In this document: piece by piece, positions 1 through 64,000 of the stretch
Numbering within the stretch: the first letter of the stretch is position 1
How the letters are laid out: each line of letters begins with the position of its first letter
Notes under the pieces: generated by a model
The model's database searches: none
The model's input: only the letters and a program-made list of their open reading frames with translations
What the model was told of the DNA's origin: nothing
Source: Utricularia gibba
Lineage: Eukaryota; Streptophyta; Magnoliopsida; Lamiales; Lentibulariaceae
DNA length: 64,000 bases
Direction: 5' to 3'
NCBI GenBank assembly: GCA_002189035.1
Contig: NEEC01000025.1
Location: forward strand, 62,001 to 126,000
Position numbers and translations under genes: made by a program

Positions 1-1314
1 TGGCTGCATCCCTTCATGAATATGCGACCCACCATTCGCAGAGGTAGACGGTAACTCATGGCTGTGAGCATCTGCAGTCATCTCCTGGACCGGTGGTGGG
101 TTCACGACGGTCATCGCAAACGTGCTGTCATCGGCAAGCCGAGCCTTCATCTCCCGGTGCTCCTGGCACAACGCGCACCAGTGCAAGCAGCAGTGTACCA
201 TACAAGGATCACATGGCGAGTTCTGCATGGTCATAGGCAAGGGGAGAATTGGAAACCTCCACAAAAGTTCTCTGTCATGAGGAAGGAGTTGATGCGAATT
301 CCTTAAGGCAGTACCTTGAGGTGATACTTCTTCTGCAGTGTCTGCCGAGCAAGGCCTGTGTAAATCCCACACATCCACCAACTGAAAAGGAGTCCTTCAA
401 GGATGAGGAATGTTGTCCTTGGTTCGATCACACCATGTACAGCAGCAGCAGTTGCAGCCAGTGCCAGTCCACCTTCAACAAAGATGGCATGACAGATACA
501 TGGACCAGTCCATGGAGTGTCCTCTTTCATCTGCTCAAAATTGCGTCCGAAGAGAACGCATGGGCAGAGCAACCCGGTCCTGCCTATTCCATGACAGCAA
601 GAGAGCAGCTGGTTACTGGATAGGAAGGCAACATGACATCATGCTGCCGATGCAGCATCATTTTAAGATAATGCATAAAATACAACTGAAATGCCTCTCA
701 GAGGTTGAAAAGCATGAACACTGGCTTTATGATGATGTCATTAAAGAACTTACAGCTCTCATTGTCCTGTGCACAATCGAAAATTCCAGATGTCCAAGGC
801 TCATCTGCTGGAGCTTGATAGCTCTCTGGTAAAGGCTGTCCACACTCACTGCATTTCCTAGTATGCAACTGCAAAGAATAATTGGATCTACTTTAAAATG
901 TAGTTGACATTCTCATTGAAAATCGAACGAGCCTTGATAAACATAATGAAAAGGAAACGTGAGGATCAACAAAAAAAACCAGGGGTGAGACTGAATACAT
1001 TGCAGAGTCAAAATGAAAGAGAACATATAAATTTTTGTTAGCAAATGGGACCATCATGACCGATCGATCACCAGATCAAGAGTCCCTAAGCAAGGTAGCA
1101 CTTTTATTACACATTTCCCTCCTCAGATTCAGTCCAAAGTAAACTTTACAATAAACAGGTAATCATGTACGAATGCCGAAGCGCTAAGGGAAATGAAACA
1201 AGACCTGAGGTACATCGATGGGCATATTAAGTTCGCCGGGTTTAATATCCTCCAATGGCGCCTGCTCCTTCGTCAATTTCACATAACTCGTCGGTGATTC
1301 ATCTCTTCTGCCAT
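1..1314 (-). CDS. PLAC8-family cell number regulator 6-like protein, partial and frameshifted
   Basis: Four exons are visible on the minus strand: 1314-1205, 868-754, 583-315 and 222-1, and the gene runs off the window's left edge. The protein has the plant CNR6 layout: an N-terminal [19 protein letters not shown] segment, then [11 protein letters not shown], the CPCVLFGRN motif, a hydrophobic stretch, and [20 protein letters not shown]8 proteins are small cysteine-rich membrane proteins linked to organ size or metal transport; the role here is inferred from family only. Two oddities. The only plausible ATG (1314-1312) is out of frame with the conserved segment: one C seems missing at 1296-1297, because ATG..CAC CCG ACG would restore it. 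The exon 2/3 junction reads C-R-T-G where I recall family members having C-W-T-G. The upstream open frame has no ATG. It may be a sequencing error or an early pseudogene. Confidence 0.85.
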
Positions 1315-2356
1315 TTTCACAGATCTGACCAGAATCCAGGGACCCAAATTCAAGATCCGCAAAAAGCAACTCGTAACACAAGTCAACGAAAATCAAATCA
1401 CCTGACACCCAGCACAAACGCAAAATGCTACTGAATATAGTTTGTATGCTAACAAAAAAATCACCCTAACTGCCAAAGAAACGACTAACCAATCCTCGGA
1501 GAAAACAACCCAAGTCGCCTTGGTACCCAGATGAAGTGAACTTAGACTTCCGGTCTACGGGTTTTACCGTTTTTCAGTCCCCTCTCCACTGTCAACGCGG
1601 CGTGCAGTTGAGTGTTATTAAAACATACGGCCCATCAACAAGGCTCACAGTTCATTGAGCTACTTCGTCATGGCCCAATATCACCCCAAGAGCCCATTAT
1701 CAGGCCCAATATCGCATCTAAATAAATTTCATTCCTAGATCAGTATTAGTTTGCTTTAGTGTTACATTTCAATAACTAATCATTCATAAATTCATAATCT
1801 AATGTACAAATACGATGATACCGATCGAATGGTTTGAACGCTATGCTTCATCTACTTTAGATCATATTAATCCCAAAATAACCATAAGTTTTGTTTGAAA
1901 CATATTCTATTTTTATACAAATATATAAGTTTTGTAATAAAATATGATTGATTTTAACTTCAAAAATTTAGACGTATTTTTCTTATTTTTTTTTAAAATA
2001 CAGAATATTAACTTATGATTTCAGGTTTATCATAAATATGTTATAAAAAATAATTTTCAAAAAGTTATATAAAAAGGAGGATTAGTTGTGGCTAATTTTA
2101 ATAATCACTTTATGACAATAAGTATTTTGGTAGTGAAGGTGTGGTACGCCATAAACGGAAACAAAGGTGGATATTTTGTTGTCGTACAGCTAAAGGTGGT
2201 ATGGAATTAAATTGTGGCAAATGGGGGATAAAAAGTGGTAAATGTGATATTTAGTAATTCCATTGAATAACAGTCGACGAGAACCGGTACGGTGGTTGGG
2301 TTAGATATTTAGATTATGGACGGCATTCACTTTTAATGCGTGAAAGAAAGGAGAAG
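1315..2356. other. Intergenic region with promoter-like 5' part
   Basis: No gene is supported. Between about 1629 and 1715 there are four GGCCCA/AGCCCA (reverse of TGGGCY, Site II) copies, placed as expected for the promoter of the minus-strand CNR6-like gene. The rest (about 1730-2300) is very AT-rich with no recognisable repeat or RNA gene. Confidence 0.5.
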
Positions 2357-2800
2357 TTACCGCCGGAAAGCAGCGGCGGAGGCGACCCAGGCGGCGTCGC
2401 GGGGCACGATTTGCCCCTGCGCCGCCACGATCGCCTTGTAGATCTCAACAATCGTCCGCTCATCGTACTCCTTAACCGGCCGAGATCCGAACCCTGCCAG
2501 TCCGTCGGCGCGGTAACCGGCCCCGATCGCCGGCGAATTCGCGAGCCTCACCATCGCATTGACATAAGCGTCCCGCAGTCCGATGAGAAACTTCTTCGGA
2601 GAGAAGCGGAACCTGAGTCTCAGCCGAGGCGAGAGCTTAAACTTCCAGAAACGACGTCGTCTCCGAGACGGCTCCGTCGAAGGCAATTCCAAAATCCGAC
2701 ACGCCTTGCTCCGGCCCGCGGCTGTACGGAGACGAATGTAGCCTCTTCTCCGCCAGTAGCTTCGGAATCCCCTGAATGCCGTTGCAGAAATCCCTTCCAT
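2357..2800 (-). CDS. Small plant-specific basic protein, UCP031279-like
   Basis: A single-exon gene of 147 residues with ATG at 2800 and stop TAA at 2357. The N-terminal half is strongly basic (RRRRRFWKFKLSPRLRLRF, about residues 47-66). It is followed by SPKKFLIGLRDAYVNAMVRLANS and then RPVKEYDERTIVEIYKAI near residues 108-125. I recognise this as the plant family annotated as uncharacterised conserved protein UCP031279, in which the PKKFL-LRDAYVNMM-LANS and KEYDE-IVEIYK blocks are conserved. No biochemical function is known to me. There is no obvious signal peptide. A plus-strand frame over the same bases is a shadow: it lacks family similarity. Confidence 0.75.
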   Translation of the reverse strand: MEGISATAFRGFRSYWRRRGYIRLRTAAGRSKACRILELPSTEPSRRRRRFWKFKLSPRLRLRFRFSPKKFLIGLRDAYVNAMVRLANSPAIGAGYRADGLAGFGSRPVKEYDERTIVEIYKAIVAAQGQIVPRDAAWVASAAAFRR

Positions 2801-3757
2801 AACCGTCCGCGTTCCAATTTTTTCGAGAAAACTCCTGCAAAATTAGACGAAGCGAGACGATCTCCTGTTTCAGGTAGAAAAATGGAGCGGTAGGGAGTAG
2901 ATTAGCCGATGTTTGGAGGAGACGGAGGCGCAGAGGTGGAGGCATTTATGCTGCCTGTCGCTGTAAACCGTATATTAGGTTAGGAGTGGCGGACACTAAA
3001 TGCTGGGTGCGCCATTCGTCCGGCAATTAAGCATTTCTTATTTTTTTATTTATTATTCTATTTCTAAAATCAATTAAATTAATATTTTCAATTAAAAAAT
3101 ATCCAACATTAAATTCTAAACTTAGTATAAGTTTATGAGCAAAATGCACCCAATGTTATTACATTATATCTCATCTAATCCTTACTATGGGGCGAATTCG
3201 ATCCAACTTTTCGAAATGGAATTGGAATTGATCACCACAATGTGGTTCGAAATGGAACCTAAATCTAGAATTATAAGATCTGATCGTGAATTATCGATCT
3301 ATTATCAAAATGTAATAGAAAAAACAAAAATTATAAAAAATTGTATGAAATAAGCACTAAATAGGGTTGGTAGCTAGTGCTGCCCAAGGCAGAAATGCAT
3401 CCATCCACCTAATTGGGGAGGTTCAATCACATACTAAATGCAGACCAAATACGCGAATTGTGTAGAATTTAGGGGCTAAACAATCAAAGAATAGGAGTTA
3501 ATGGAACTTTGGGGTCAGATTGGAGATTATTTTTACATAGAATAGTGAAGAGCGAAGACGATCAGCCAATGCCTATACTTTAACTACTTGGTTACCTTGT
3601 AAAAGAAGAGCAACGCTACAATAAGTTTGGATATTTGCGATTTTGTCCCCTTTTTTTACCGATTTTTCGGTTTCCGCCCCAATTTTCCCCACGTCAAAAC
3701 CCCTAATTCCTAGAAATTCAAGTACAACCTCTACAGCACGATGTACTACACTGCAAG
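2801..3757. other. Intergenic region, nothing recognised
   Basis: AT-rich spacer. A 72-codon plus-strand frame at 3135-3353 has no family similarity and looks like chance. No repeats or RNA genes were seen. The start of this stretch would hold the promoter of the UCP031279-like gene, and its end the 3'UTR of the GATA gene. Confidence 0.4.
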
Positions 3758-4317
3758 CTAACCACACACGGCAGCCCTGCAGCAACTAAGCGACATCAAA
3801 AGCAGCGCCGCCCGCTCCTCCTCCCTCAGCTTCCCCAACAACTTACCGTATCTCTGCAAAACGACGTCGCTTCCAAAACCACTGAACCGCATTTTCAAAA
3901 TCTCGCTCACCTCCTCGCTGCGGTTCGAGGTAGGTCGCTTCTTTTTCCGGCTGCCTCTCGCTGTCTCTAGACCGAGAAGCTGCCGCCGCTTCTTGTTGTA
4001 CTTGATCCCGCAGGCATTGCACAATGACTATCGAAAAATAAGAGAACAAAAAATCTTCACGATTTTGTTTTCAAAATAGGCTCCTCTTAGTCCACTCAAT
4101 CGTACCTTAGGTCCGGCAGGCCCGCCGCGCCAGAGAGGAGTTCGCGTTGTGTGGCAATCGCTGCAGCTTTTCAAAATGTGCTTAGCCTTGCCATCGGTCT
4201 CCGCTTTCTGTAAAAGAAACTGCATAAAATCAGGCGACTACGCTCGAAAGAACATCAGGTGCCTCTATTCCTCACCATTTCGTCTTTCCGATCCAAATCA
4301 TCGGCCTCCGATTCCAT
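3758..4317 (-). CDS. B-class GATA zinc-finger transcription factor with LLM-like C-terminus
   Basis: Three exons (4317-4276, 4207-4106, 4027-3758) give a 137-residue protein starting MESEADDLDRKDEM. The GATA finger spans exons 2 and 3: C-S-D-C-H-T-T-R-T-P-L-W-R-G-G-P-A-G-P-K, then LCNACGIKYNKKRR, i.e. CX2C-X18-CX2C of class IV plant fingers, with the intron at the usual place inside the finger. The tail (ALLLMSLSC) resembles the leucine-leucine-methionine domain of LLM B-GATAs, which act in greening, stomatal and hormone-controlled development. The size matches the short GATA15/16/17 group. The start was chosen because the first exon ends at a strong GTGAGG donor and joins in phase. A TATA-like box lies about 140 bases upstream. 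Confidence 0.88.
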
Positions 4318-4455
4318 ACCGCAAAGCAGACCCAACGCAGTCAACTACGACGGAAGGGACGAGAATGTGACGACTGAAGAGAGCCGGGAGGGAGAAGCCG
4401 ATATTTCAGGCCAAGTGAAAAAGGATCAGCCGCCAGTGCGTGTAGTGTGTGTTCC

Positions 4456-8687: not shown

Positions 8688-8729
8688 TGCATGATAAGAA
8701 CGACCGTGGAGGACTGAGGGCAAGATAAG

Positions 8730-10536: not shown

Positions 10537-11508
10537 CGAGTATAAGAGGTTTCTGGTGAGCATTCGTTTTCCATCAGCATGGATTCACTTTCCAAGAATA
10601 CTATATTAAATCAAGCATCTATGTAGAGTCAATATTTTCTATTCATCAACATTGTGAAGTATTCAATGATATTCAAGAAAGTCCTATAGAAACTGTTCTA
10701 ATATCAGCTCAATTCGAGAGATAAACGTGCAAACAGTTTCTGCTTGTAGAGCTTCGGCCACCTTCATTGCCAGAACCGGGTGCCACACTCCAAGTACTCT
10801 ACTTGAGATTCCATACAGTCTTGAAGCATGATTCTGACGCAGTAAAGAGTACATGAATCAGATCAAAGAGAGGCAAAGTCAAAACAACAGACGATGAGTG
10901 ACTGACCTTGCATTTTGATGGTAACATGCAACTTGATCAGTGATTTGCAGGAATTTTAAGCATCATCAACCAACATTGTTTTAATATCATAAATAAGTTC
11001 ATCTGACAATAATGTGACAAACTCCCATTTAAACAGGGAATCAGCAACTACTACACTCTATGCGGGTAGCATCTACCGAAATCCTATCTTAGCAAAACGC
11101 ATACATCATAAACACAAGCACGTTATCGGCATGAAGACAGCATCAAGTCCTTCGGTCTCACAATAAACATCAATGATATCGAGCACTCAACACGAAAAAT
11201 TAGTTTCACTCTTTATAGTAGTGAACAATTCACGATATCAGGCATAAGATGATATATATCCCATAAAATGACATGTTTTCCTGCAAGAAGAGTATGGGCG
11301 GTTATATAATGCAGCAAAAGAGGAAAAAAAAAATCTCCAAAGAAAACAAGTGAATCTAGACCTTCATAACTAAGTACCGCATACATTCCTACAAGGATCC
11401 ATTTTGATGCTTGCTGAAATATTTATGCAATCGTCCAAGTGCTGCCAAAATAAAACCTACAAAGGGATTCAGGAAAAATTTCTTGTATAAATAGTTTTTC
11501 CATTGTAA
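10537..11508. other. Convergent 3' flanks of aminotransferase and CTP synthase
   Basis: No coding exon is supported. The region holds the 3'UTRs of the two converging genes. I saw no repeats or RNA genes. Confidence 0.4.
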
Positions 11509-14500
11509 TCACAGACTCCTCAATGCTTTTGCAACATCCCATTTACCTAAGAATACAGGAGAGGGTTTCCCAGGGCGAGACTTGTACTCAGGATGAAATT
11601 GAACCCCCACATAAAACGGATGGTCATCTAACTCCAAAATCTGCATATGCTTTAAAGAGTCAACAATGAACTTTTTTAAAATAAAAATAAGGATTAAATT
11701 AGATAGAATGAATGGCAGCCAGAAGCACAAGAAATGGACCTCCATCCGATCACCACTTTCATCCTTGCCAACAAACTTCAATCCACATTCTTCCAAAGAT
11801 TCTACAATCTCTGGATTCACCTACATTTGAAATACATTCAATGCTTCAAGGCATGCTGACACAATCCTTCAAAAAAAAAGTGTAAATGCAGACCTCATAT
11901 CTGTGCCGATGTCGCTCATCAACATGCTTAACCTTATGGTACCTGGATGTAAGTAAAAAGTTACACATGAAAGCCAAATATTTCTTGCCAACGTTAAGAT
12001 AATCAGTGACATAATTTTGAATTGTCACATCAGAAAGAATGGCTCGACTCATACAGCTTTGCTGTTACACAATTTGGTGTTTGAAACAACGTCCTGCGGC
12101 TTCCAAGTCTCATCGTGCCACCTTTGTAAGCCACTGAACCCTGCAGATGAATTAAAGTTCAAGGTATATATGGAGTGAAGATTTCCAAAATGGACAGTGC
12201 TGTATACTAGATACCTCTGGCATGAAAACCACAACAGGATGTGGGGTCTGATCATCGAATTCTGTGCTGTTTGCTTGTTCCCAGTGTAACACCTGTTGAG
12301 TGAGATACGCAGACAGTTAAATAATTGAAAGGTCCGCTACTGTTTAAATTTACACAGAATCCAATTACATTTCTGGCAATCTCAATGACAGAAATCTGCA
12401 TTCCTAAGCATATCCCAAGGTATGGGACTTTATTCTCTCTGGCATATTTTGCAGCCAATATCATTCCATTCACACCTCGATCACCAAACCCACCAGGAAC
12501 TAAGACACAATCTGCGCTCTGCAAAATATCATTCCATTCTCTCTAAGAAACCATTGAAAATGTGAATGAAGTGTATTTAAACTACCACCATAGCAGTATT
12601 ATTACAAAAAAATAATAATAAGAATGGAGCCAGCGTAAAGAACATTGACAATAAGGTGAGTGCAAGGGCACGTCCAATTCCAAATTCAAACAGGGACAGC
12701 ATACTGAAGGAGTTGAAAAGAGTCAGGGGCCAGTACCCTTAAGGTCTGCCAAGCTGTCTCATGGGTATCGGGTGCCTGAAGACAACAAAATACATGCACC
12801 TGATATAAATGCGTTTGTAAAATGGAGATGTTATCATCTAAGACTCTTCCTTTAAAAACATTAACATTACACTATCGCCTTCAAGATCTGATGCTGCCAC
12901 CCATTCAATTTGTGGCTTAACTGAACATGAAATACAAGCATGCAAAAGAGCCTGAAACCAAAAAAAAAAACGAACTATAAATGCTCAGGGAAGCTAAACA
13001 ACCAACACATTTTGAGCAGCACACAAAATAAGGAACTATTTTTCACCTTCACCACAGATAAATAAGAATCTTGCATGCCAACATACTTTCCCACCAACGC
13101 AATTCTCACCTGCAATATCGATCAAAAACATATCTTTTTTCAGTGCTATGAAAAAAGGAAAGGAAGAAAGACGAATGAACAGTTTGCATCTAACAGGATT
13201 GGTAAGATTGTCAAAAATCTCAGCCCTTTTAGCCCACTCTCCCATATCAGGTAGAATAGCCACGCTGCCAAAAAAAAAAAAAAAAAGAAACAAGAAGGCA
13301 AATTATATAAAGAGATATGATGATTAGCGTTTGCAAAAAAGAAACAAGTAAGCAATTGAATATCAGCTCAAACTCATATTCTCGTCATGCAGAAATAATT
13401 AGCTCGTAAAAAACCTGAACCCAGCGAGTGATTACCTTTGTAAATTCAGGTGTTTTAAGATGGATTTATGAGCTCCTTGATTCTATTCAGATGAAAAATA
13501 TCGTAAATCAAACTCTAGAGAAGCAAAGTAAGGAGCACATCTATTGACAAATGAATCACCTCAAGAAGAAGAGGAACGTGCCAAATGTTTGAAACATTAT
13601 GTACATCAATAATATTGCCAACCTGGCAGACAAAATAGATCAGCATAACCAACAACCTCATGGTTTATGAAGACAGAACTTCCCATGCTTACAGGAACAT
13701 GGCAAAACTGAGCCAATTTTTGCCTTGTACTTTCCAGTAAAGGCTGCCAAATCAAGAAAATAAATAAGTCATGGCAGTCTAAAACAGATGAAACAAAATA
13801 AAACGCATTGTTAGAAAAAATGACGAAACCCAAAGCCTTCATTTTCATGAATCCAATCCCCCGAAAAAATACATTATTAAAATATGGAATACCTGTTCAC
13901 AACGGCAAGCCAAAAAATGAGGAGTCAAACCTAGAGCCCTCAACTCCCTCACGCTATGCTGAGTAGGTTTAGTTTTCTGAAGAGAAATTACACATAGTAC
14001 AATGACTTCTATCGGCAATTCATTAAAACGTCAAACGAAAACTTGCTGTATTTGAAACAATAGCAAAAGAGTCTCACCTGCTCGCCATCCCCGAGAACAG
14101 TTACCAGGCTCACATGAATCACAGAGAAATTATCTTCCCCTGCATCCAGAAGGAAGTGAAACAAGAGAGAAAATGAAAAACAAAATTGAAAGAAAAAATG
14201 ATGGGCTGCGTGGACTGAGAGGTCAAGATCTAAAATACATAAAATGAAGCAACTTTACCAGCAGAGAAGGACAATTGTCCCAAAGCTTCCAGAAAAGCCT
14301 TAGACTCAATGTCACCTAGAAGAAAAAAAGTGGGATGTTTTTATTATTTATCAAAACCAACTAGAAAAAAGAAAGGTACCAGAACTCACGCAAGCAATCT
14401 ACCACCCACAAATTTACCTACGGTTCCCCCAATTCTATAACACAAACATCTGGTGCACCCTCCTTTCCATCCACAGGAACAACGGACACTGACTGAATCC

Positions 14501-15318
14501 AATTCTTAATCTCATCAGTCACATGAGGGATGACCTGGTAAGAATGAGCGTATTCCGCAGTGTTCGTTTCCAGTGAACCAAACAAAAAATCCGACAGCAA
14601 ATAACCTGTACAGTCCTTCCAAGATAATCACCTCTCCTCTCCCTTTCAATCACAGACTGAACAGGAAAACCCATGTAAGGGAAATCGCAAGCATTCATCT
14701 TTAAAAGCAATGGAGACAAAAACACTGACTTGGTATATCTTTCCTGAAGTGATGTTGTGCTCTTTAGTTAATTTAACATCCAAAAAACGTTCATAATTGC
14801 CCAAATCAAGATCCACCTGTTACGCAAGCAAATATAATGTTAAAAATACTTCCCAAAGACATTTCTTTTTTACATTAAATAGCAGTAGCACCAAAAAAGA
14901 AACTTCAACAAAGACACTGAACCTCTCCACCATCGTCAAGAACAAAAACCTCCCCGTGCTCAAATGGAGACATGGTTCCGGCATCCGTATTCAAGTAAGG
15001 ATCTGAAAAAAATCAAGAATTCGAAGAGGTGTCATCATCTTCCCAGATACTGTACAATAGAATCCACGCGACAGTGACAACTCCTTCTCTACCCACGTGC
15101 CTCCCACACCAAAGTCTCATCGAAATCAAAGACAACCAATCCATACAGCACAAACATAGAAATAACGCAAAGAAAGTGAAAAGAAAAAAACGAAACAAAC
15201 CGATTTTGATGGAGGTGACGCGAAGACCACAGGCCTTGAGAACGACCCCGACGCTGCTGGCGGTGACTCCTTTTCCAAGTCCACTGACGACTCCCCCGGT
15301 GACCAACACATACTTCAT
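11509..15318 (-). CDS. CTP synthase, one-base frameshift in exon 5
   Basis: Twenty-one exons can be traced: 15318-15201, 15002-14923, 14816-14730, 14656-14606, 14534-14418, 14315-14259, 14139-14078, 13976-13893, 13743-13693, 13622-13560, 13482-13436, 13264-13195, 13109-13047, 12951-12871, 12775-12737, 12518-12369, 12292-12215, 12140-12055, 11942-11894, 11820-11740, 11640-11509. With one added base the protein is 548 residues, as expected. CTP synthase makes CTP from UTP, ATP and glutamine. The N-terminal synthetase domain starts [17 protein letters not shown] and has [19 protein letters not shown]. The glutamine amidotransferase domain has [17 protein letters not shown] (nucleophile Cys), and [16 protein letters not shown] with the catalytic His and Glu. 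Exon 5 reads ELGEP-stop where family members read ELGGTVGD: five Gs stand where six are needed (14426-14430). All other exon phases agree, so I treat this as a sequence error. Confidence 0.95.
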
Positions 15319-49639: not shown

Positions 49640-51682
49640 CTACACCCCGACGCATTCATGGATTGCCTTGTAGCACTGCAGGCTGCAAATGGGAAGCCTC
49701 GACTTCGAATCCCTGTACTTGTACGGATTCCGGCACGACGGACCGGCGCAGGTCTCGCGGGAGGAGGATACCTGAGACAACAAGAGGCGTAAGCAACGGT
49801 GATGAAGGGTAGAGCTCAAAGATCTTCTGTGCAGAAACGAAGTGCATTCATTCCCCTACTGCGATGGGTTCGGGTCGAAGATCTTCGGAAAACCCATTTC
49901 TCGGGGGAATGTGACGGTTGTTCCCGTCGGTCCCAGGACTGTTCTGATGGTGCATGATGCCAGCAAATGGGCAGTGGCTATCTTCTCCTTCGCCAACTCC
50001 TCCTGTCTTTTCTTTATTTTCTCTTCTCTCTTCTTTCTGCTTGAATCTTGTCCAAGGATTTTCCTAATCGCCTCTTGCTGTAAGTTTCAAATCCAACTTC
50101 CTTGAGCCCATTAACTGAAAGTAGGTATAAACTGTGATGAAACAAAAAGGGAAAGGGAACCTCGGTTTCTCGGGCTGCTTTCTCATTCATCAGTCTTCGT
50201 CTTTGAGCAGCTTCAGCCTTTTTTGCTTGTTGCTCTGTTTCAGACAACTTCTCCTTTCGCTCTGATGATGGCATTGTTAAATAGATGGGGTTATGGAGCA
50301 TAACTCAGACGACAGAAATATCTCACTTACTTCGACTGGGAGCTGGTGGTAAGCCATCTGGGAACTCAATTTGGCATGCACCAGCTACTGAAGAAGGATC
50401 CTCCTTCCGTAGAAGGGCTCGCTGACGAGTTGTCAAAGCCACTTCCCTTTTTTGTTCTGCTGGCACCTCCGATGGATCTTTCCTTGACCTTTTCTTCTTC
50501 CCACTATCGTGCTCAGAATCAGAAAACGAACCTTCTTCCTCATGTGCTACCTCTCCAGGTCTGCACTTCTTAACATCTCTTCCACCTCTGGGATCCTCTG
50601 CACTTTCAAATTTCCTTCCCTTTTGTGCATCCGAGTCCTTGTATCCTGACATCTTCGAACTCTTGAGCTTCTCCAGGTACCGGATCTCATCATCCTCTGA
50701 ATCTTCATCAAAGTCATCTGCTCTCCTTCTACGCCCCCTTTTGCTCTTCCGGACTGCATCTAACTTATTGCCGTTTTCCTCTACAGCATTCTTCGTTGAT
50801 TTCCTCCCCACATCCTCCCTGGATGTGCTGAAATTATTCGTAAAATCCTTCCAGCGAACACCTTGCAAGCTACTCTTCTTATCCATATGTGGAGAATGAT
50901 GTTCAGTAGAATCACCCTGCAACCAAAAAGTGACAAAAATATCAAATTACAGTAATCGGATTCCAATACAAGAGATTTCCTCATGCATAGGACACAAGAA
51001 GGCCATGAAAGATGCACCACCATACCAAAATGCAGCTAAAAAAACTAAAAAATGCTACAAACCTAGGCAAAACAACACAGAGATGCATAATGCATAGTTG
51101 ATACTTTTGTATTCTTGCGATCGGACAACTAAGCAGAATCAATCTCTAGGAAACAGTCAACAAGGATATAACCTTACAATCCAAGCACGCATTGCTTGCA
51201 ATCTATCATACTTCTTCCAGTAGCGCTAACTAAGATTCAGCACTACCGGCTGAACGTGACACATTGTCAATGTGGTATATATGCGAGGAAGAAAAAAACA
51301 AAAAAACCTGATGAATTAGCCTCCGTTTTTGATGAGCATTATCAGATTGCTGATTCCCCTTTACAGGAGCTCGGTTGCTTGATGGCCCATTGGTTGCACC
51401 ACCAACCTTCAATTTCACCTTCTTTTGGACGTTCCCAAGTGCTGCGCCTTCACTTGCATCAGCGCATGGAACTGATTCATCACGGAAAGGCCGTGAAAAA
51501 CACTGATTCATTCTTCCACTAGAGTTACCATCAATAGTCTCATCAATCGAGACATCATTCACGTCATCGAAAACGGGTGGTGATGACAACGATGAATGAT
51601 CAGGAAGTGATTGCACCTCAGGTTTTGGTCGCCGTGAGGTTTGACTTCTCTTTTTCTTTAGAGTACATCTGGAAGACTCCAT
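49640..51682 (-). CDS. INO80 chromatin-remodelling subunit B-like protein (PAPA-1 plus zf-HIT), frameshifted last exon
   Basis: Five exons: 51682-51308, 50916-50331, 50261-50161, 50077-49860, 49771-49640. With one base restored the protein is 470 residues. The N-terminal half is acidic/basic low complexity with a nuclear-localisation-like KSKRGRRRRADDFDED. The PAPA-1 region follows: LTTRQRALLRKE, PSRSKRKEKLSETEQQAKKAEAAQRRR, and EAIRKILGQDSSRKKREEK. Then a zf-HIT finger with CAGPSC, NPYKYRDSKSRLPICSLQCYKAIHEC. In yeast and animals IES2/INO80B stimulates INO80 ATPase and nucleosome sliding. In exon 5 the frame entering from exon 4 (CCT CCT CCC) is one C short at 49759-49761; without it the zinc finger falls out of frame. 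Confidence 0.88.
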
Positions 51683-52591
51683 CTTTACAGAATGCTTCCG
51701 AATCCTGATCCAAAAATCACATCTTTTAAAAATAAACTTCAAGGCAGAAATCATTACAGAACTAACGACACTGATTCCTGTAACCTCTAAAACATAAAAT
51801 CTACAATCACAGAGAGATGTAAGTATCAGCTCAAACCCATGTCTCGGATCGATTCAAGCAACCGGCTTTCCAAACAAAGGAGGAAAAGAGCCAGCATAAA
51901 TCCAACAACACAGCACATATTCAGCGAAAACAATCTACTTGGAGAAAACGGAAAGCCAATACCCCTCACATTGACTCGACGACGCCCAAACCCATCATCA
52001 AACAACAAAAAACACAAGAAACATCGACATAACGCGAAGTCAAACACGAATTACCCGAAACAACGCACGACGCGAAGAGCCCACGATCGAGATCACCAAG
52101 ATCAAGATCGGAGAATCGATCGTTGAATAAATTTCCAAACACGGTTGGTACAGAATTCGCTTCTAGGGTTGTAGTTGTGGAAGATGCGGGAAGGAGGATA
52201 ACAACGATGGAGGTGGGAATTGGTAATGGTATTGCTATACTCAATTTCTCCTCCATGCTGCGTGCGTGTATGAGTGTGTGTGGACTATGTAGGATCTCCC
52301 AACCTATACGGGCCCTCGGGTTGGATTTCTGGATCCTGTCCTCTTGAGTTCAGTGTACTGTTCGCCTTTCCCCTTCTCCATGGTGTTATTCTCCTTCGCT
52401 GCAACTACATGTAACATGGCGCAGGTTTGCTTCACGCGCACGGTTTTTTTTTTAAAAAAAAAAAAAACTATTTTTCTCACTGTTTGATTTTATTATTTTT
52501 CTGTTTTCGTATTATTTTGAAAATAATAATAATAAGGCTCTTGTGAGTGAAGTTCATACAGAAGACAGGAATTTGAGACTAGGGTTTCAAG
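51683..52591. other. Divergent promoter region between PAPA-1-like and RH24 genes
   Basis: Contains a likely 5'UTR intron of the PAPA-1-like gene (acceptor just before 51682) and the RH24 promoter. A T10-A14 homopolymer junction lies near 52445-52470. No gene is supported; frames at 51826-52256 have no similarity. Confidence 0.4.
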
Positions 52592-55561
52592 ATGTCGAAG
52601 AGGAAGTTCGGATTCGAAGGGTTTGGGGTCAATCGGCAAGCAACTTACGACTTCGAGCGGTCGCAGACGCTTCAGCGGCTATATGTTCCTCCGTCAGCTA
52701 GAGGCGGAGGAGGGGGTGACGGCGACGATGACGCGGATCTGGAAAACATAGAATATGCTGAGGAACAGAGGGATGAGCCCAGGGACGCAGGTGATGAGAA
52801 AATTGACGTGAAGAGGAAATTGATCCTCTGGACGCGTTTATGAATGGGCTGCAGGAGGAGATGAAGGCTGCACCGCCACCTAAGGGGAAGAAGTTGGATA
52901 AGTATGAAGATGATGTGGAAGATGATCCTATGGAGAGTTTTCTCAAGTCGAAGAAGGATGTTGGATTGCAATTAGCGGCAGATGCCTTGCACGCGGGGTA
53001 TAATTCGGATGAGGAGGTTTATGCTGCAGCGAAAGCGGTGGATGCTGGCCTGCTAGATTATGATTCTGATGATAATCCTATTGTTACCGATAAGAAAAAG
53101 ATCGAGCCGATTCCTGCTCTTGACCATTCTTCGATTGAATACGAAGCATTCAACAAGGATTTCTACGAGGAGAAGCCTTCAATATCGGGTAACTCTAATT
53201 CCATGGTTTAAAGAATCTTTCCTTTATGGTTTCCAGTGGTTTTGCTATATCTTTGTGTGTGTGCGTGTGTATTTGTTGCTTCTGCTGTCCATGAAGGCAC
53301 TGACCAATCTGGCTTATAGGAATGAGTGATGAGGATGTTGCCGAGTACAGGAAGAGTGTAGCTATCCGAGTTTCAGGTTTTGATGTTCCACGGCCAATTA
53401 AGGCATTTGAAGATTGTGGCTTTTCTATTGAGCTGATGAAGGCCATCGCGAAACAAGCGTATGAAAAGCCCACACCTATACAATGCCAAGCTTTACCCAT
53501 CGTACTTTCTGGGAGAGATGTAATTGGGATTGCAAAAACTGGATCAGGAAAAACTGCATCATTTGTACTTCCCATGATCGTTCATATCATGGATCAACCT
53601 GAGCTTGGTAAAGAAGAAGGTCCCATTGGTGTGATTTGTGCTCCCACCAGGGAACTGGCTCATCAAATATATTTAGAAGCTAAGAAATTCTCCAAAGTTC
53701 ATGGTATTCGAATTGCTGCAGTTTACGGTGGAATGTCTAAGTTGGATCAGTTTAAAGAACTCAAATCAGGATGTGAGATAGTTGTGGCTACTCCAGGAAG
53801 GTTGATTGACATGATCAAAATGAAAGCACTAAACATGCTGAGAGCAACATATCTAGTACTTGATGAAGCTGATAGAATGTTTGACCTTGGATTTGAGCCA
53901 CAGATAAGATCTATAGTAGGTCAGATTAGGCCAGATCGCCAGACATTGCTTTTCTCAGCCACCATGCCTCGTAAAGTTGAAAAGCTTGCTAGGGAAATCC
54001 TATCTGACCCTGTAAGAGTAACAGTGGGAGAAGTGGGTATGGCCAATGAGGATATAACACAAGTTGTTCACGTGGTACCTTCAGATGCTGAAAAGATGCC
54101 ATGGCTAATTGAGAAGCTCCCTGGGATGATTGATGAAGGTGATGTGCTTGTTTTTGCTTCCAAAAAGGCCACTGTGGATCAAGTTGAAGCTCAACTTGTG
54201 CAAAGAAGCTTTAAAGTTGCATCGTTGCATGGTGACAAAGATCAAACTTCTCGTATGGAGATATTGCAGAAATTCAAATCGGGAACATACCATGTCCTGG
54301 TTGCCACTGATGTTGCTGCTAGGGGGCTTGACATCAAATCTATTAAGTCTGTGGTTAACTTTGACATAGCAAAGGACATGGACATGCATGTGCATCGAAT
54401 TGGAAGGACAGGTCGGGCTGGTGACAAAGATGGGGTTGCCTACACACTCATAACTCACAAGGAATCCAGATTTGCTGGTGAATTGGTCAACAGTTTGGTT
54501 GCTGCAGGCCAAAATGTGTCAAAGGAACTCATGGATCTGGCAATGAAGGTGAGCACACGTGCTTCGTTTTTGTTGTGTGAAAACATTCTTGCAAGCAGAG
54601 GCCTCACAATTGCGGGGTTTTGTTTCTACCGTATTTTCTGCATCTCATATTCCTGGGTTTTCTGATTCACAGGATGGAAGGTTCAGGTCCAAACGTGATG
54701 CTCGAAAAGGAGGTAGGGTGATTTTCTTTTTCTAGGCTGTCCAGGTTTTTTTTTTTTTTTTGTAGGTAAAAGGGCGTATACTTTTGCCAGTCATGCACTC
54801 GTTGATATCTTTTGCTTTCATGCTCATTTATCCGAATCCAAGACTGTCTAAGCTCAGGCATTCCATCCGAAGTATGCAAAATTCCAGGCCTTCTGATGAT
54901 AACTTCCCCTGCAGGTGGAAAAAGAGCCAAGGGGAGGGAGGTGGTAGTAGAGGTGTACGAGGGGTTGATTTTGGTCTGGGAATTGGGTACAGCGTAGAAT
55001 CTAATCATCCATCAAATGCACCTTCTGTGCGTTCTGCAGCAGTTAATTCACTGAAGGCAGGAATGATGGCTCAATTCAGGAGTAACTTCGTCCCTGCATC
55101 ATCTAATTCGGAGAACCAATTTCTACAGAACAATACAAATGTGCAAACAAATAGAAGAGTGTTGTCCGGTTTTGTGTCAGGTGGGACAATTGGTGGTGAC
55201 GTTTATGCTGCTAAGATAAACAGTTCTCCTTCAGCGGCTGCACCCTCATCGAGTACTCCTACGACAAGAGAAAATTCCAAACCAGCTCAGCCTGATAGGT
55301 ATCTTTTATGTGCTTAACATTCATTCATTCAGTATTGCGCTGGCGTAGTTAACCTCCTTAATGAGCTAGTCTTGGTGGGTTGGTCGTCTTGTTAAATTAT
55401 CATCAAACTGCCCTTATTCTGGCATCCCCTACGTGTTCTATTTTCATGCCGTAGCTATTTTGACGCCCAGGCACTTCACATCCTTACGCGTTACCACTTT
55501 GTTTCTTGGTTCCAGAGATAAAGCAAGAGAAAGGCGTAGACCATCTGGTTGGGATCGTTAG
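52592..55561 (+). CDS. RH24: DEAD-box RNA helicase RH24 (DDX42-like), two frameshifts
   Basis: Five exons: 52592-53188, 53320-54548, 54673-54712, 54915-55298, 55516-55561. With two bases restored the protein is 765 residues, close to the Arabidopsis RH24 length I recall. The N-terminus MSKRKFGFEGFGVNRQATY is family-specific. Helicase motifs in order: Q motif (FEDCGFS..PTPIQCQALP), AKTGSGKT (Walker A), PTRELAHQ, TPGRLIDMI, DEADRMFD, SATMPR, ATDVAARGLDIKSI, and HRIGRTGRAG. A Gly/Ser-rich tail follows. DDX42-type helicases are nuclear and linked to U2 snRNP/spliceosome assembly. One base is missing at 52811-52812 (AA for AAA, between GACGTG and GAGGAA), and one at 54919-54923 (A5 for A6 after GTGG). 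Splice phases before and after agree only with these repairs. Confidence 0.94.
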
Positions 55562-55765
55562 AGCACCAGTCCACAACAATTTCAACCGCCTTTGCTGTTG
55601 TATCATTTTTTATGTGGGGCGCTTGGTGTAGCTCATGTTTCGTAGAAGGCTCGAAGTTCAGTGATGATGATTTCGCTCGCTATAAGAAAGTTCATGTTTA
55701 AAGGTTGCAGCGCTCTATATTTGAACTCAATGGTGGCTGTGCAACTTCTCCGACAATGGCTTCCT

Positions 55766-57123
55766 CTAAGCACTGGGGCAACTCGACGGCTCACCGCCAC
55801 GGTTAATTCTACGACGATTAGCACTTGGGCAAATGTCGAGGCAACTCTCCCTAAGCGCGCTGTCATCTTCTGGGTTTGGTGGGATCACTCCAAACTTGAA
55901 CTGCCATTGTGGGAAACAAGGGCTCAGTTGAATCAAACGAAAGAGCCAGGGGAAATCTTCCTTCGGAAAAATGCAAAAGCAACACCTGACACGAGTAGTC
56001 TGCGAAGTTGGGCTCCATCAGCAGAGGAACTCCCATGTACTCTTTGAAAAATGCCTGCATGTCATGAAGAACGGTAAGATGACTAAGGTGTCGAGAAAAG
56101 TGTTTGTGAGGATGATTCACCTGCGTGGGAAGCTTGCAGGTGTTGATGCATACTCCCACACATTTGCTCTCTTCCAAGTACTTGCACTTCTCAACCAAAA
56201 CCTACATGAATGAATGAATGAATGCCAAGTTGCAAGGCAAGTATCCAGATGAGGAGGATTCAGGTATGTGAAGCAGAAAGGAAAAGATTACCCCACTAGT
56301 CCACGAGGCACCATCAGCAACATCTACAGAGTTAACTGAACATCTTCCCATGAGCCATTGGCATGAGAATACAGTTACCCTGGCTGATAACAAGCAGGCA
56401 GTTACCTTGATTGCTATCTACCCTCCATGATCAGAACTGCACTTTCGTTAAGTGACAAGGAAAGAAGGCACTTACCTACCATTTCAGCAGCCACTCTACC
56501 TCCGGCAATGGGAGAAATCAGCTTCCTGTAGAGCTCCAGCAACAATGGAGGGAAGAGTGACACCAGTATCCTTACCTACAACAGGGATACCGTAGGAAGA
56601 ATCATTTGCTGCTTCTAATGCATCTTTTGAATTTTGCTAAATCGCAAGGAAATGGAGGGAGGGTACGGCGATTTCAGTCGCTTCGGACTTGGAACGGCCG
56701 ATCAATAGGCGGTGTGCTATATCAATCAATCCATCGTATCCAGGTTTCTTCGAGTCCCAACCACTCTTCTGTGAGCCATCAGTAAATCCTTCCGTAACCT
56801 ATGTAACACACGTAACTGGATCCGAAATACTAACCTCCGCCATTCTTGTGCGAAAAACCTTCAAAAAGACCTCGTCCAGGAACCCTGGCAAATACTCCTC
56901 TGCAATCGGTTTGGCATCAGTTGCCTTGACCTATCGGGAGAGAGCTTATATCAGTCGATTTTTTTTTGTTTTTTGGAGATTTCTCGTGAGCTAGCGAGAA
57001 ACGAAGCTATCTTACCGAATGAGATTGCGTGGAGAAGCGTGAAGCTAGGGAAGACGAATCGTTGATCAGGGGATACAGACGAGGAATGACGGCCGGAAGT
57101 GGCCGGACACTGAGCACCGCCAT
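55766..57123 (-). CDS. DWARF27-like (DUF4033) plastid protein, carotenoid isomerase family
   Basis: Eight exons close in frame to 260 residues: 57123-57016, 56930-56835, 56768-56667, 56575-56476, 56383-56292, 56201-56121, 56054-55986, 55900-55766. The N-terminus (MAVLSVRPLPAVIPRLYPL..SSSLASRF) looks like a plastid transit peptide. DUF4033 marks: KSGWDSKKPGYDGLIDIAHRL, LFPPLLLELYRKLISPIAGGRVAAEMV, SCQWLMGRCSVNSVD, LVEKCKYLEESKCVGVCINTCKLPTQ, FFKEYMGVPLLMEPNFADYSCQ, and a Cys-rich tail. D27 is an iron-containing all-trans/9-cis beta-carotene isomerase that starts strigolactone synthesis; D27-like paralogues act on related carotenoids. The second intron is only 66 bases. The gene converges with RH24 and is divergent from GUN1. 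Confidence 0.9.
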
Positions 57124-57411
57124 AAACGTCCTAGAATCCTGATTATCGGATTATACTGCCAACCAAGGTTGAGGTAACCGCGGTTGGGTTGAGAAATTGA
57201 ACTATGGTTACGAAAATTTGTTGTAATATTCTTAAAAAAAATGACGAAAATCTACTAGGATTTACCCGACCTTTACGGACGGCTGACCTGAGCTGCTTTG
57301 ATATCCATTCGGTCCAAACAGAGGACGAGGAGGAGTGAGAGTAAAAAGGAAGTGAACTTTTTTCTTCTTGTTTTTGTTTTATTTATTATCTTCTACGGTG
57401 GCTCGCAGTCG

Positions 57412-60254
57412 ATGGCTTCCTCGACGCCGCCGCCGCCGCATTGCGCGTTGACAACGGCGAAGCCTTACCCGGGCCACCACTTCCACCACCCGCAGAACCA
57501 TCATCGGCGGGGCTCTACGCAACAGCACCGCAGCTGGGCCCCCAGAAGTTTTCCTTGAACAAGAACGATGCTTCTAAAGCCGCCGCCGCCGCCGCCAGAC
57601 TACCTCCAGCGTCCGCCGCAGCTGGGCCCTGTTTGTCAGTTACTGATTTCTCGAGCCGCCGTTCCACGAGGTTTGTTTCGAAAATGCATTTCGGGCGCCC
57701 CAGATCCGCTGCCTCCACTCGCCATTCGGCTGCCGCAGCGGAGGCGCTTGAGACGATTGTGTGTGGCGGAGAGGGAGTCGGTATGGATACCATTTTGCGT
57801 AGTTATGAATCAAAGCTGTGTGCTTCGGATGATTATAATTATCTGCTTCGTGAGTTGGGGAACAGGGGGGATTGGCTTAGGGCGATGCAATGTTTTGAAT
57901 TCGCCACCAGCCGTGAGAAGCGGAGAAACGAGCTGGGGAAATTGGGTACCTCCATGATCAGTACCCTTGGCAGATTGGGAAAAGTTGAATTGGCTAAGAA
58001 GGTGTTTGATACTGCTGTGAATGAGGGCTATGGGAATACTGTTTATGCATATTCCGCTTTGATTAGTGCTTATGCCAAGAGTGGGTACTGTGATGAGGCG
58101 ATTGGAGTGTTTGAGAGTATGAAAGATTACGGCTTGAAGCCAAATTTAATTACTTACAATGCTTTGATTGATGCTTGTGGTAAAGGGGGTGGTGATTATA
58201 AGAGGGCCATAGAGATTTTTGATGATATGCTGCGTAATGGGATGCAGCCTGATAGAATTACCTACAATTCACTGCTTGCAGTTTGCAGTGGTGCTGGATT
58301 GTGGGAGACTGCTAGAAATCTATTTGATGAGATGGTTTATCGAGGAATAGATCAAGATATTTATACGTACAACATCCTTTTGGATGCTGCTTGTGGTGGT
58401 GGCCATATGGACATTGCTTTTGAGATAATGGCCGAGATGCCGGCAAAGAACATTATGCCCAACGAAGTAACATATAGTACAGTTATCCGTGGTTGTGCCA
58501 AGGCTGGCAGACTAGATAGGGCGCTGAATTTATTCACTGAGATGAAGATGGCTGGTATTAAACTGGACAGGGTATCTTATAATACTCTGGTTGCTATTTA
58601 TGCGAACCTTGGCAGATTTGAAGAGGCTTTTGCAGTGGCAGAGGAAATGGAGAAGTTTGGGATCAAAAAGGATGTGGTTACCTATAATGCTTTATTGGAT
58701 GGTTTCGGTAAACAATGGATGTATGGTAGAGTGAAGGCTTTATTTGCTGAGATGAAAAGGGAAAGGCTTTCTCCTAACTTACTAACATACTCAACATTGA
58801 TCAGTGTGTATTTGAAGGGAGGTTTATCTGAAGATTCATTTGAACTGTACAAAGAATTTAAGCAGCAGGGCCTCAAGGCGGATGTTGTTTTCTACAGTAA
58901 ACTGATTGATGCATTGTGCAAGAAGGGGCTAGTGGAATTATCTGCACGGTTGCTTGAGGAGATGATGAAGCTAGGCATCCATCCTAATGTTGTTACCTAC
59001 AACTCAATAATCAATGCATTTGGGCATTCAGAACTCGATGATCATGGGGTAGTTGCAGTACCGCCATTGTCTTCTCAACATATTGCTGATGACATTGCAG
59101 CACACGATGAAGACAAAATTATAGAAGTCTTCAGACACTTGGCTTCTGGAAAATCAGGCGATGAAGCCCATGAGAGAGGGAAAAAAGACTTCCGATGTGT
59201 TCTGGACATTTTCTCTAGCATGCATGAGATGCAAATAAAGCCTAATGTTGTCACCTTCTCAGCAATTCTTAATGCTTGCAGGTACGCTGATTATCGCTTA
59301 ATATATGAGACTTCAGCAAGTTTGCTTATCACTTGCAGCGCACACCTTACATCAGTGTCTTCAGCTCTTCATAAAGTTTCTACCTTTGCAGCCACTGTAA
59401 CTCATTTGAAGATGCTTCACTGCTGCTAGAGGAATTGCGCCTTTTCGATAACCAAGTTTACGGAGTTGCCTACGGCCTTCTTATGGGTTATGATGAACAT
59501 ACTTGGTCTAGAGCTGTGACACTGTTCGATGAGATGAAGCGCATGGACACATCGACTGCATCTGCATTTTACAATGCTTTAACAGACATGCTCTGGCACT
59601 TTGGCCAAGTAAAACTTCTATTCCAATCTGAGCTCATCTTCTATCCCCTGTTTCTGATGCACACAAATTTTCAGCTCTGTCTTATTCATCTCTGTACCTC
59701 TTTTTCCAGAAGCGGGGTGCCCAACTGGTGGTTCTTGAAGGCAAGCGTCGAGAAGTCTGGGACAACACTTGGTCCGACTCGTGCCTAGATCTGCATTTGA
59801 TGTCCTCCGGCGCTGCTCGGGCGATGGTTCACGCATGGCTCCTGAACATCCGGTCCATTCTTTTCAAAGGCCACGAGCTTCCCAAGCTGCTAAGGTATGA
59901 ACTCGCTCCGTTCTCGCAGTATCTCCATCATCTTCTCCACCGGCATTATTTACAATCCCCTTCCCTCCTGCGCGAACTACTTCCTCCAGCATTCTTACCG
60001 GCTGGGGCAAGCATAGCAAGGTTGTCGGCGATAGCGCCCTCAAGCGTTCAATCGAAGCGCTGCTGACCAGCATCGGCGCGCCATTTCGGATCGCCAAGTG
60101 CAACATGGGCCGGTTCGTTTCGACCGGAGCCGTCGTGGCGACGTGGCTGAGGCAGTCGGGGACTCAGAAAGTTCTCGTTCTTCAGGATGACAGGAGGCGT
60201 TCAGGGTGCATGAAGCTCGATCTCTCCTCTGCTTTACAACCTGCGGCGTCGTAA
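57412..60254 (+). CDS. GUN1: GUN1, plastid PPR-SMR retrograde-signalling protein, frameshift near N-terminus
   Basis: Four exons: 57412-59281, 59392-59608, 59710-59894, 59990-60254. With one base restored the product is 845 residues, somewhat shorter than Arabidopsis GUN1. It opens [20 protein letters not shown] (plastid transit-type), then [15 protein letters not shown], a region diagnostic of GUN1, then a dozen PPR motifs ([54 protein letters not shown], ...). The C-terminal SMR domain has [19 protein letters not shown] and [11 protein letters not shown]1 integrates plastid signals that repress nuclear photosynthesis genes. The ATG frame stops at 57558; the main frame has no ATG. C5 at 57539-57543 needs one more C ([12 protein letters not shown]), which joins both. 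Confidence 0.94.
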
Positions 60255-60891
60255 CATTTCCCTGATGCTGCGTCATGTATGTACAGAGAACAACTCCCAA
60301 ACGCCTCCTTTTGTCTAAATTCATGTGTTCTTATATTACTAATGTTCAACTATGTGATGTTAAAAGGTAAAGTTTTTTAGTATTAAAAATGATAAAATCA
60401 ATTAATCAAAAATAAAAATAAATGATTAAAAAGGGGGAAAAAAAAAAGAAATCGTGATTGTAACTGCTGGTCAAAGGGGGAGTTGAAGAGGGGCTAATTT
60501 CTACCGCCAGACGGACCGCGTGAGAATCCCGCGCTATCTCGCCGTGTGTCCACGTGTCATCCATCCAGGTTCCCATGATCGACGGCCTCACCCTCGCGAT
60601 CTTGTGTGGGTCCGCCAGCTTCAGGGGAGTAACCGGCACGTGGCCACAATCGCGTTGCCAAACCGGCACCTGTCGACAGAAAAGTCGCCGCATCCCCACT
60701 GGTAAACGGTTACCACACGCGACTATATAAAAACCGATTCAAGGCCGACTATCGTGGTTTTCACCACTTTGGATGATCTTGGGGAAATGACGAGAAGTTT
60801 CTTTGATTGACGACTCCGCGGAATCTTGAAGTTCTTCGTGCTTTTGAGAAGGTGACTGTTTTGTATTTTCTGTAGCTTGCGATTGGGGAGG
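60255..60891. other. GUN1 3' flank and PP2C promoter/5'UTR
   Basis: No coding exon is supported. The right part is GC-richer and holds CCACGTGTC (G-box) near 60549 and a TATA box at 60725-60731, followed by a probable 5'UTR. Confidence 0.45.
60725..60731 (+). promoter_or_regulatory. Putative TATA box of the PP2C gene
   Basis: TATATAA within GACTATATAAAAACC, about 165 bases upstream of the PP2C ATG at 60892, leaving a 5'UTR of roughly 135 bases. Confidence 0.55.
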
Positions 60892-62525
60892 ATGGTAGCT
60901 GAAGCCGCGGTGGCTGTAACGGAGACTATAGCGTCGGCGCTTGATTTGCCGGCTGCAGGAGTTGTAAGCTCTTCTTTCGATTCCCTTGTGCGCTATGATT
61001 TCTTCGCGACTGAAACTGCTTGTTCAGGGTGTTCCGACTGAAACTGCTTGTGATTTGAATCGTGTATATTGCGTAGTTCTTTAATTGCGAAAGCGCTTCT
61101 GTATGATCTCTTTCATTTACTTGGTTGTAGCCGTTTGTAGCGCAAGCAGGACGGTGGGTTTAGGAAGGTTATCTTTAAGGGCTGATCTGACTGGGGAACG
61201 CGTGATAATATATTCATTGAATAGATTTGATGACGGCAGAATTTTTTTTTTTTTTTTTTTTTTTTTGATCAGGGGTTTATGAGTTTTGGGGTTGCCGATA
61301 ACAATTTTCTTTAATCTTCTCTCAGGATGTTGAGTATTCTGAAGCTCGTAATTCACAATACCTTCCAAGGATCCGCTCTGGAAGCTTTGTTGATATTGGA
61401 CCACGGAAGTGTATGGAAGATGAGCACATAAGGATAGATGATCTCTGCAATCACTTGGGATCGATCATCAGTTTTCCTGAACCAACATCCTTCTATGGGG
61501 TAAGTGATTTCATGTTCTTACTGCCTTTTCTACTTCAGTTGGAATCTTCATGGGATTGTCACGTTTTATTTCTCTCACTATCTTTTTCTTTATCTTGTAG
61601 GTGTTTGATGGTCATGGAGGACCTGAAGCAGCGGCCTTTGTTCGAAGAAATGCAATCAGATTCTTCTTTGAGGAAACTGATTTCCCTCTATCATCGCATT
61701 GTAGCGATGCATTTCAAATGGAACTTGAGGATTCTCTGAGGAAAGCATTTCTTCAAGCAGACATAGCTTTGTCAAATGACTGCAGCATCAGTACTTCTTC
61801 GGGAACTACTGCACTGACAGCCATTGTTATTGGAAGGTACCCTTCTTTTTCCCCTTTCTGCTGCTTCATAAAGTAAAGTCCTATGCACGCCTTTTTTGTG
61901 TTAGTTTGTAATTCGCATGGGAAACTCATGTTTCTTCTGTAACTTTTCTAAGATCTTATGAATTACATGTTCCAGGCTTCTGGTGGTGGCAAACGCAGGA
62001 GACTGCCGAGCCGTTCTTTGCCGGAACGGCGAGGCAATGGATATGTCTCAAGATCACAGACCAAACTATGTAGCAGAAAGACAGCGTGTTGAGAAAATGG
62101 GTGGTTTCATCGATGAAGGTTATCTCAATGGCATTCTTGCAGTTACTCGAGCTCTTGGTGATTGGGACGTGAAGTTGCCTCGAGGATCATTCTCACCTCT
62201 CATTGCAGAACCAGAGTTTCGACAAACAATCCTCACAGAGGAGGACGAGTTCCTCATACTTGGTTGCGATGGGATCTGGGACGTGATGTCCAGCCAGCAA
62301 GCAGTCACACTGGTTCGCCGTGGACTCAGACGGCACGATGACCCTGAGCAGTGCGCCAGGGACCTCGTCATGGAAGCTCTCCGGCTGAAAACATTCGACA
62401 ACCTCACCGTGATCATTGTTTGTTTCACATCTTTCCAGCCCTACGGAAACCGGGCGAAGATTCGGCGTTGCACCCTTTCTGCCGAGGCTTTGAAGAGTTT
62501 AAAGAGCTTCTTGGAGTCCAGTTGA
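60892..62525 (+). CDS. Protein phosphatase 2C (PPM family)
   Basis: Four exons (60892-60963, 61326-61499, 61601-61836, 61976-62525) close in frame to 343 residues. PPM metal-dependent Ser/Thr phosphatase motifs are all present: [18 protein letters not shown] (metal-binding Glu/Asp), [76 protein letters not shown], and [10 protein letters not shown]. The sequence around RSGSF-DIGP-MEDEH resembles the plant PP2C27/PP2CG group rather than the clade A ABA co-receptor phosphatases, so a role in general stress signalling is likely but not certain. Intron 1 contains a T25 run at 61242-61266. The gene converges with the mTERF gene. Confidence 0.95.
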
Positions 62526-63052
62526 CTGAGCTGATCTTCGTGCTGCGTATGTGCTCCTCCACTTCTGTTTTACTTGCAGGAGGAAGCTCCCATCTTTGGG
62601 CACAGTAACACACAATAAATCGCAGCACTTGTGAAGTAAGAAATTCTTTAGGCATTGAGGCACACCTGCTGTTGCTTACAGCGGTGGATGTACATATGTA
62701 TTGGCTGCTGCTTGGCAGATGCAACAAATGTGCACTGAGTTGGATGATTATATTTATGTCTCCTGTGGCTACACAGTTCTGCTTTGTAATACTGATCAAA
62801 CTTCAGTGTTGTAAAGTTTGACAAGAATACAACACAAATATCCACAATGACCTGCTTTGCCTTCCCTCTGTCTTCTAGAACTACCTGAAAGGGGTGGAGA
62901 TGGGAAATCAGCCTCTGAGATAACATGATCTCAGTTCACAATCTCAATTCAAATGATGGCTTTATTGCTGATTTTCAGCAAACACCATCATTTAGACAAG
63001 AAGATGAGGGAGGCCACTTGGAGTTTCCTTCATCTCAAAATTGTGATGATCA
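62526..63052. other. Convergent 3' flanks of PP2C and mTERF genes
   Basis: No coding exon is supported. Small frames on both strands have no family similarity; this is most likely overlapping 3'UTR sequence. Confidence 0.4.
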
Positions 63053-64000
63053 TCAGAAGGGGAAGCCCTTGGTGATGTTCTTTTTGGAGGAATCAGCTAG
63101 CAGGCGAACACACTTTGCATTCTGGTAAGCCTTCGTCAACTCCTCAGCTACTCCATGGATATGGCACTTGATAAAGGCTGAGATGAAACGGTCATCCGAC
63201 ATCCTAAGTGCTCTCAAAAGAGATGGTCCTTTTATTCGAGGCTCCAGTCCCATGTCGTCAAGCAAGCAACCAATCTGAAATCGGGGTCTCAGTTGGCTCT
63301 CCAGATTTGAGTGCAGCAAAAACGGATGGCTAAGCACTACATGGACCGGTAGCTTCATGGTTCCAATGACGAAAGTCATGTTCCTCTGAACCTTATCAAC
63401 TGAGAGTGTCAGCACAACAGGAGAGCGCCCTATCAGATGAAATATCTCCTCTTCAGAGAGACCAAACTTCTCCAAGTTTGTAATCTTTTCACGGATTGTC
63501 TCCAGACGTGAGACAGCAAACAGGGAAACCACATGTTTGTACATCTTTGAGTCCACTGGAACACCTGTTTTCCGTATAAACTGCAGTTTCTCATCATCAA
63601 TACTGGATCTCGGAATCAGGGTTGGGCGAGTCAGGAGCACCTTGATCATGTCCGGTTTGGTGAACCCCAGAGACTCATACATGGAAATGACATCCTTCAG
63701 TTTTTCATGGAAATCATTAGTGAGGAGAGAAGGATTCCTCACCATGGCCTTGACAAGAACTTCTCTCGAACCAAATGTGTCTTCCAGGTATTGGAGGCGA
63801 TCTTTCAATGACAAATTAAACTTGGAGATAAGGAGACGAGGTCGACAATGAACCATCCTCACCAGCTGAGAAGAGTTGATACCCAAATAAGACAATACTT
63901 CAAGCTTCGACTGTAGCATACTGGTGCAGTATCTCCGAAGTGTAGGGCAGCGCTGGAAAATCTTGGAAATGTCACTATCGCTACATCCCCATTGTTTGAA
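63053..64000 (-). CDS. mTERF domain protein, 5' end outside the window
   Basis: The frame is open from the window's right edge (64000) to the TGA at 63053, about 315 residues; the first in-frame Met seen (63919) is not the start, because the reading continues upstream in the same family style (DISKIFQRCPTLRRYC). mTERF repeats of about 30 residues with the leucine/proline pattern recur: VLSYLGINSSQLVRMVHCRPRLL, FGSREVLVKAMVRNPSLL, LGFTKPDMIKVLLTRPTL, FGLSEEEIFHLIGRSPVVLTLSVDK. mTERFs are organellar nucleic-acid-binding proteins acting in transcription termination, intron splicing or ribosome assembly. The target organelle cannot be told without the N-terminus. No intron is seen in the visible part, as is usual for plant mTERFs. 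Confidence 0.93.
   Translation of the reverse strand, partial: FKQWGCSDSDISKIFQRCPTLRRYCTSMLQSKLEVLSYLGINSSQLVRMVHCRPRLLISKFNLSLKDRLQYLEDTFGSREVLVKAMVRNPSLLTNDFHEKLKDVISMYESLGFTKPDMIKVLLTRPTLIPRSSIDDEKLQFIRKTGVPVDSKMYKHVVSLFAVSRLETIREKITNLEKFGLSEEEIFHLIGRSPVVLTLSVDKVQRNMTFVIGTMKLPVHVVLSHPFLLHSNLESQLRPRFQIGCLLDDMGLEPRIKGPSLLRALRMSDDRFISAFIKCHIHGVAEELTKAYQNAKCVRLLADSSKKNITKGFPF

Follow-up and report, generated by a model that had tools for sequence, protein, structure and literature searches.

Background

Consensus sequences assembled with HGAP are polished with Quiver. Residual errors of such assemblies have been described for two bacterial genomes, both of which had undergone repeated Quiver polishing. 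In the case of Enterococcus (2.9 Mb chromosome), Illumina reads exposed 561 single-base homopolymer deletions (PMC4888979), and in the case of Streptomyces, Illumina data revealed 205 residual indels, nearly all of them in G or C runs (PMC4832174). For Utricularia gibba, a PacBio HGAP assembly of 581 contigs was published, with an N50 of 3.4 Mb and 88x coverage (PMC5793159). The assembly analyzed here consists of 100,091,633 bases in 516 contigs and is presumably the PacBio HGAP/Quiver assembly of U. gibba. In this work, frame breaks were analyzed in one stretch of 64,000 nucleotides, referred to as the window:

C480:62001-126000: analyzed window

The window contains six frame breaks, which are similar to the defects of the bacterial HGAP/Quiver genomes in that single bases are deleted, mainly next to runs of C or G. 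Summing the gene models gives an estimated density of six breaks in about 30 kb of coding sequence, or about one per 5 kb, which is similar to that of Enterococcus (about one per 5-6 kb, chromosome and plasmids together). The two situations differ in that the bacterial errors were shown by Illumina reads, whereas here the genome is a plant nuclear one and the error is inferred from sequence; moreover, several sites of the window touch runs of two or three bases only. The other described system that comes close is that of fractionation pseudogenes after whole-genome duplication, with which the window shares disrupted frames in a genome with duplicated segments. In contrast to the fractionation relics of this assembly, which are short diverged fragments or combine missense changes with gains, the six sites are single-base defects in full-length genes. 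We conclude that the six losses are very likely residual consensus errors of a PacBio-only long-read assembly of the HGAP/Quiver type, and that the five affected genes are most likely intact in the plant.

Six frame breaks in five genes

The genes of the window were read on both strands, and the sites were located in their sequence context. This analysis revealed six −1 frame breaks in five genes, namely CNR6-like, CTP synthase, PAPA-1-like, RH24 (two breaks), and GUN1. At each of them, the family sequence is found in one frame up to the site and in another frame after it, with one base missing. The names CNR6, RH24, and GUN1 come from a sequence-only reading of this DNA and agree with the families as we take them to be; beyond that, the genes are described by domain and PDB matches only. 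The features are as follows (window positions):

1287-1299, minus strand: break in the first coding exon of the CNR6-like gene (PLAC8 family); one base missing at AATCACCGACGAG
11400-15318, minus strand: CTP synthase gene; 22 exons modelled, all introns GT-AG
14422-14435, minus strand: CTP synthase break; GAATTGGGGGAACC in the window versus GAATTGGGAGGAACT in the C507 paralogue, one base missing
49640-51690, minus strand: PAPA-1-like / zf-HIT gene; PF04795 and PF04438
49754-49767, minus strand: PAPA-1-like break; CCTCCTCCCGCGAG, a base is lost after the PAPA-1 part and ahead of the zf-HIT finger
52583-55560, plus strand: RH24 gene (DEAD-box helicase, DDX42 type); DEAD and Helicase_C, best PDB match DDX42
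52805-52822, plus strand: first RH24 break; GACGTGAAGAGGAAATTG, one base missing ahead of the IDPLDAFM stretch
54917-54941, plus strand: second RH24 break; GGAAAAAGAGCCAAGGGGAGGGAGG, which lacks one base of either an A or a G run
57414-60255, plus strand: GUN1 gene; PPR domains (Pfam)
57535-57548, plus strand: GUN1 break in the N-terminal part; TGGGCCCCCAGAAG (C5), one base missing

In the case of the CNR6-like gene, the ATG frame ends at a TGA and the shifted frame carries on, with PLAC8 in the downstream exons (Pfam). The CTP synthase model, whose 22nd and last exon is truncated where the modelled stretch ends, resumes past the break with CTP_synth_N at profile positions 142-265, followed by GATase (Pfam). 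Downstream of the PAPA-1-like break, zf-HIT was found (Pfam). The first RH24 break is a frame switch between the open reading frames at 52583 and 52807; the second is located within an exon, after which the frame continues with RGVRGVDFGLGIGYS through to the end. The ATG frame of GUN1, starting at 57414, ends at a TGA, and the shifted frame runs on into the PPR array. The earlier claim that single bases are lost from the frame of otherwise intact genes at six sites was thus upheld: all six sites could be placed, and the downstream frames are backed by Pfam matches. The same reading had described all six as losses, with neither substitution nor gain, and the MSH6, BRWD, and importin-alpha genes as clean. 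In our analysis, every site of the window is −1, and no visible break was seen in these three genes when they were read by eye. The same reading by eye showed no visible break in the aminotransferase, lipase, SAR1-like, PP2C, D27-like, and PPR genes of the window. The D27-like gene (beta-carotene isomerase, DWARF27-type; window 55700-57150, minus strand) lies between RH24 and GUN1, and its spliced pieces match D27-like_C (Pfam).

Homopolymer context of the losses

It had also been proposed that each loss lies in or beside a homopolymer. This holds for GUN1 (C5) and PAPA-1 (C3); the CNR6-like site touches only CC, and the CTP synthase site and both RH24 sites are ambiguous. Where the window has GGGGG in CTP synthase, the C507 paralogue has GGGAGG, so the lost base may be A and not G. 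At each of the RH24 breaks, several positions and bases are possible for the loss. Run length was taken on the post-loss sequence, alike for the observed sites and for simulated deletions. The window sites by themselves give weak evidence of run enrichment (three of the four placeable sites touch a run of at least 3, P 0.04), and when they are combined with the genome-wide losses described below, 11 of 14 placeable losses touch such a run (3.1 expected, P 1.3e-5) and 6 of 14 touch a run of at least 4 (P 3e-4); since members of a family are related by descent and close inspection of a locus was prompted by a visible frame split, these P values describe context and not frequency. Undercalling is not universal, as open frames run through a G6 at 57865 (in GUN1) and through a C6 at 29132.

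Copy number and coding constraint

A redundant full copy that would permit loss is absent from the assembly for three of the five genes. No second copy of GUN1 was found there (next best genomic match, 30% identity), nor one of PAPA-1, with PF04795 matched nowhere else in the genome; RH24 has no other full copy in the assembly, and C304 carries relic exons only. CTP synthase has one paralogue, on C507, which is the only other CTP synthase gene.

Beyond its break, CTP synthase has 407 stop-free codons. Its differences from the paralogue at the first, second, and third codon positions amount to 10/3/48 before the break and 59/23/146 after it, and the introns differ at 51% of aligned sites. The third-position-biased divergence past the break shows that the gene has long been under coding constraint, although a very recent break is still compatible with these data. 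The marks of a pseudogene, i.e., lost constraint and further disruptions, were not seen in the broken genes, as computed for CTP synthase and judged by eye for the others.

One-base losses in conserved families of the same assembly

As a control, conserved multi-copy families were searched across the assembly independently of the window. In addition to the six of the window, ten one-base losses came to light in genes of the HSP70, HSP90, and NF-YC families. Two of the five canonical cytosolic HSP70 genes (on C451 and C496) have exactly one one-base loss each, which gives a density of one per 4.4 kb (two in about 8.7 kb) for the five genes. The BiP-like HSP70 on C255 has two one-base losses. 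Two of the five cytosolic HSP90 genes are broken, with one loss on C451 and two on C255, and another HSP90 gene, on C414, reads GGG against GGGG in its close copy on C3. Similarly, the NF-YC gene on C413 has CCC where the C4 copy has CCCC, while the C4 copy has its own one-base loss, located outside any run. No clear break was found in the search tables for the histone and tubulin families. Taken together, all 16 breaks in the well-preserved genes surveyed (six in the window and ten elsewhere) are losses, and no gain was observed. Since one-base losses like these, mostly next to short runs, recur assembly-wide in well-preserved genes, the losses of the window are most likely assembly mistakes rather than signs of dead genes.

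The cytosolic HSP90 copy on C255 (C255:3188450-3190100) lacks, in addition to its two losses, nine bases of a conserved stretch, and this copy may be genuinely decaying.

Genuine decay and origin of the losses

Genuine decay was also found in the assembly. Within the locus C304:3180900-3187000, adjoining CP12-like and RH24-like relic exons are located at 498-725 and 1016-1228 of that locus. These relics match the genes of window 49-53 kb and are a fractionated duplicate segment with a lost RH24 duplicate. In the NF-YC copy on C451, a one-base gain is accompanied by missense changes at conserved residues. In a diverged tandem HSP70 on C304, a one-base loss is joined to a substitution and is common to the near-identical C241 copy; this loss looks real. 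None of these marks (relic exons, gain with missense, loss with substitution) was found at the six window breaks. The diverged HSP70 copies at C241:12.8-18.5 kb and C304:2235.5-2238.3 kb are identical over about 2.8 kb and then diverge, and the pair represents a recent duplication or a haplotig. As both copies share the break, the pair gives no direct measure of error.

Fractionation is thus real in this genome, with the RH24 and CP12-like relics side by side on C304, and a copy with a +1 change and conserved-site missense exists in NF-YC; both make it conceivable that the five genes of the window died separately by one-base deletions, e.g., as redundant duplicates in fractionation after polyploidy. 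We nevertheless consider it very unlikely that they are real pseudogenes. Three of the five lack another full copy in the assembly, none of the five showed a nonsense change, a lost exon, or the loss of a splice site (as judged by eye outside CTP synthase), every break in the conserved genes is −1, and CTP synthase is constrained past its break. If the plant, being clonally propagated, were heterozygous for loss-of-function alleles and the haploid consensus showed the broken one, breaks in single-copy genes would be permitted. Nonsense changes and one-base gains would then be expected as well, and the surveyed conserved genes showed neither; the clustering of the losses at runs also speaks against such alleles, which makes this explanation extremely unlikely. 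It is highly improbable that the losses are real in a wider sense, arising by deletion-biased mutation at short runs and being tolerated as heterozygous clonal alleles or circumvented at the level of RNA or translation.

Consensus error, the preferred explanation, has its own counter-evidence in the real-looking loss of the C304 HSP70, the nine bases lacking in the C255 HSP90, the C4 NF-YC loss outside a run, and the unbroken organellar genes described below. In its favor, the marks of consensus indel errors were found together, i.e., one-base indels, their concentration at runs, and their recurrence in unrelated conserved genes. Next to short homopolymers, chiefly those of C or G, the deletion of a single base would survive consensus calling that is performed without short-read polishing, and the true DNA presumably carries the extra base at the sites. 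Systematic homopolymer undercalling, as proposed in the sequence-only reading, gains support from −1 defects of similar density in HSP70, HSP90, and NF-YC, from the run enrichment, from the absence of any other full copy of GUN1, PAPA-1, and RH24, from the constraint on CTP synthase past the break, and from the match to the published spectrum of residual HGAP/Quiver errors. It stands as a general pattern and needs refinement in detail, as some of the losses are not clearly assignable to a homopolymer and two runs of six bases stand in open frames. We regard the finding as an artefact of a known kind.

The result is a practical warning for gene models. Automatic gene models made from this assembly would truncate or split genes about once in every 5 kb of coding sequence. 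Claims of gene loss that rely on it (e.g., that GUN1 or RH24 was lost in a plant whose genome is reduced) would be wrong. Conserved multi-copy families offer a simple internal test of whether the frame breaks of an assembly are real.

Organellar genes

Plastid atpA and atpB and mitochondrial cox1 are unbroken, which higher coverage of the organellar genomes would explain. Plastid psaA was considered as a decisive control and rejected: the C515 copy deviates at conserved positions and is broken several times, beside an intact psaB. Contig C515 is a mitochondrial contig with plastid inserts, so the broken psaA, atpA, and atpB copies located there are probably real pseudogenes, and they were dropped as a control. 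On this contig, cox1 is split by an intron that itself contains an open reading frame, and broken plastid-derived psaA, atpB-atpE, and atpA are present.
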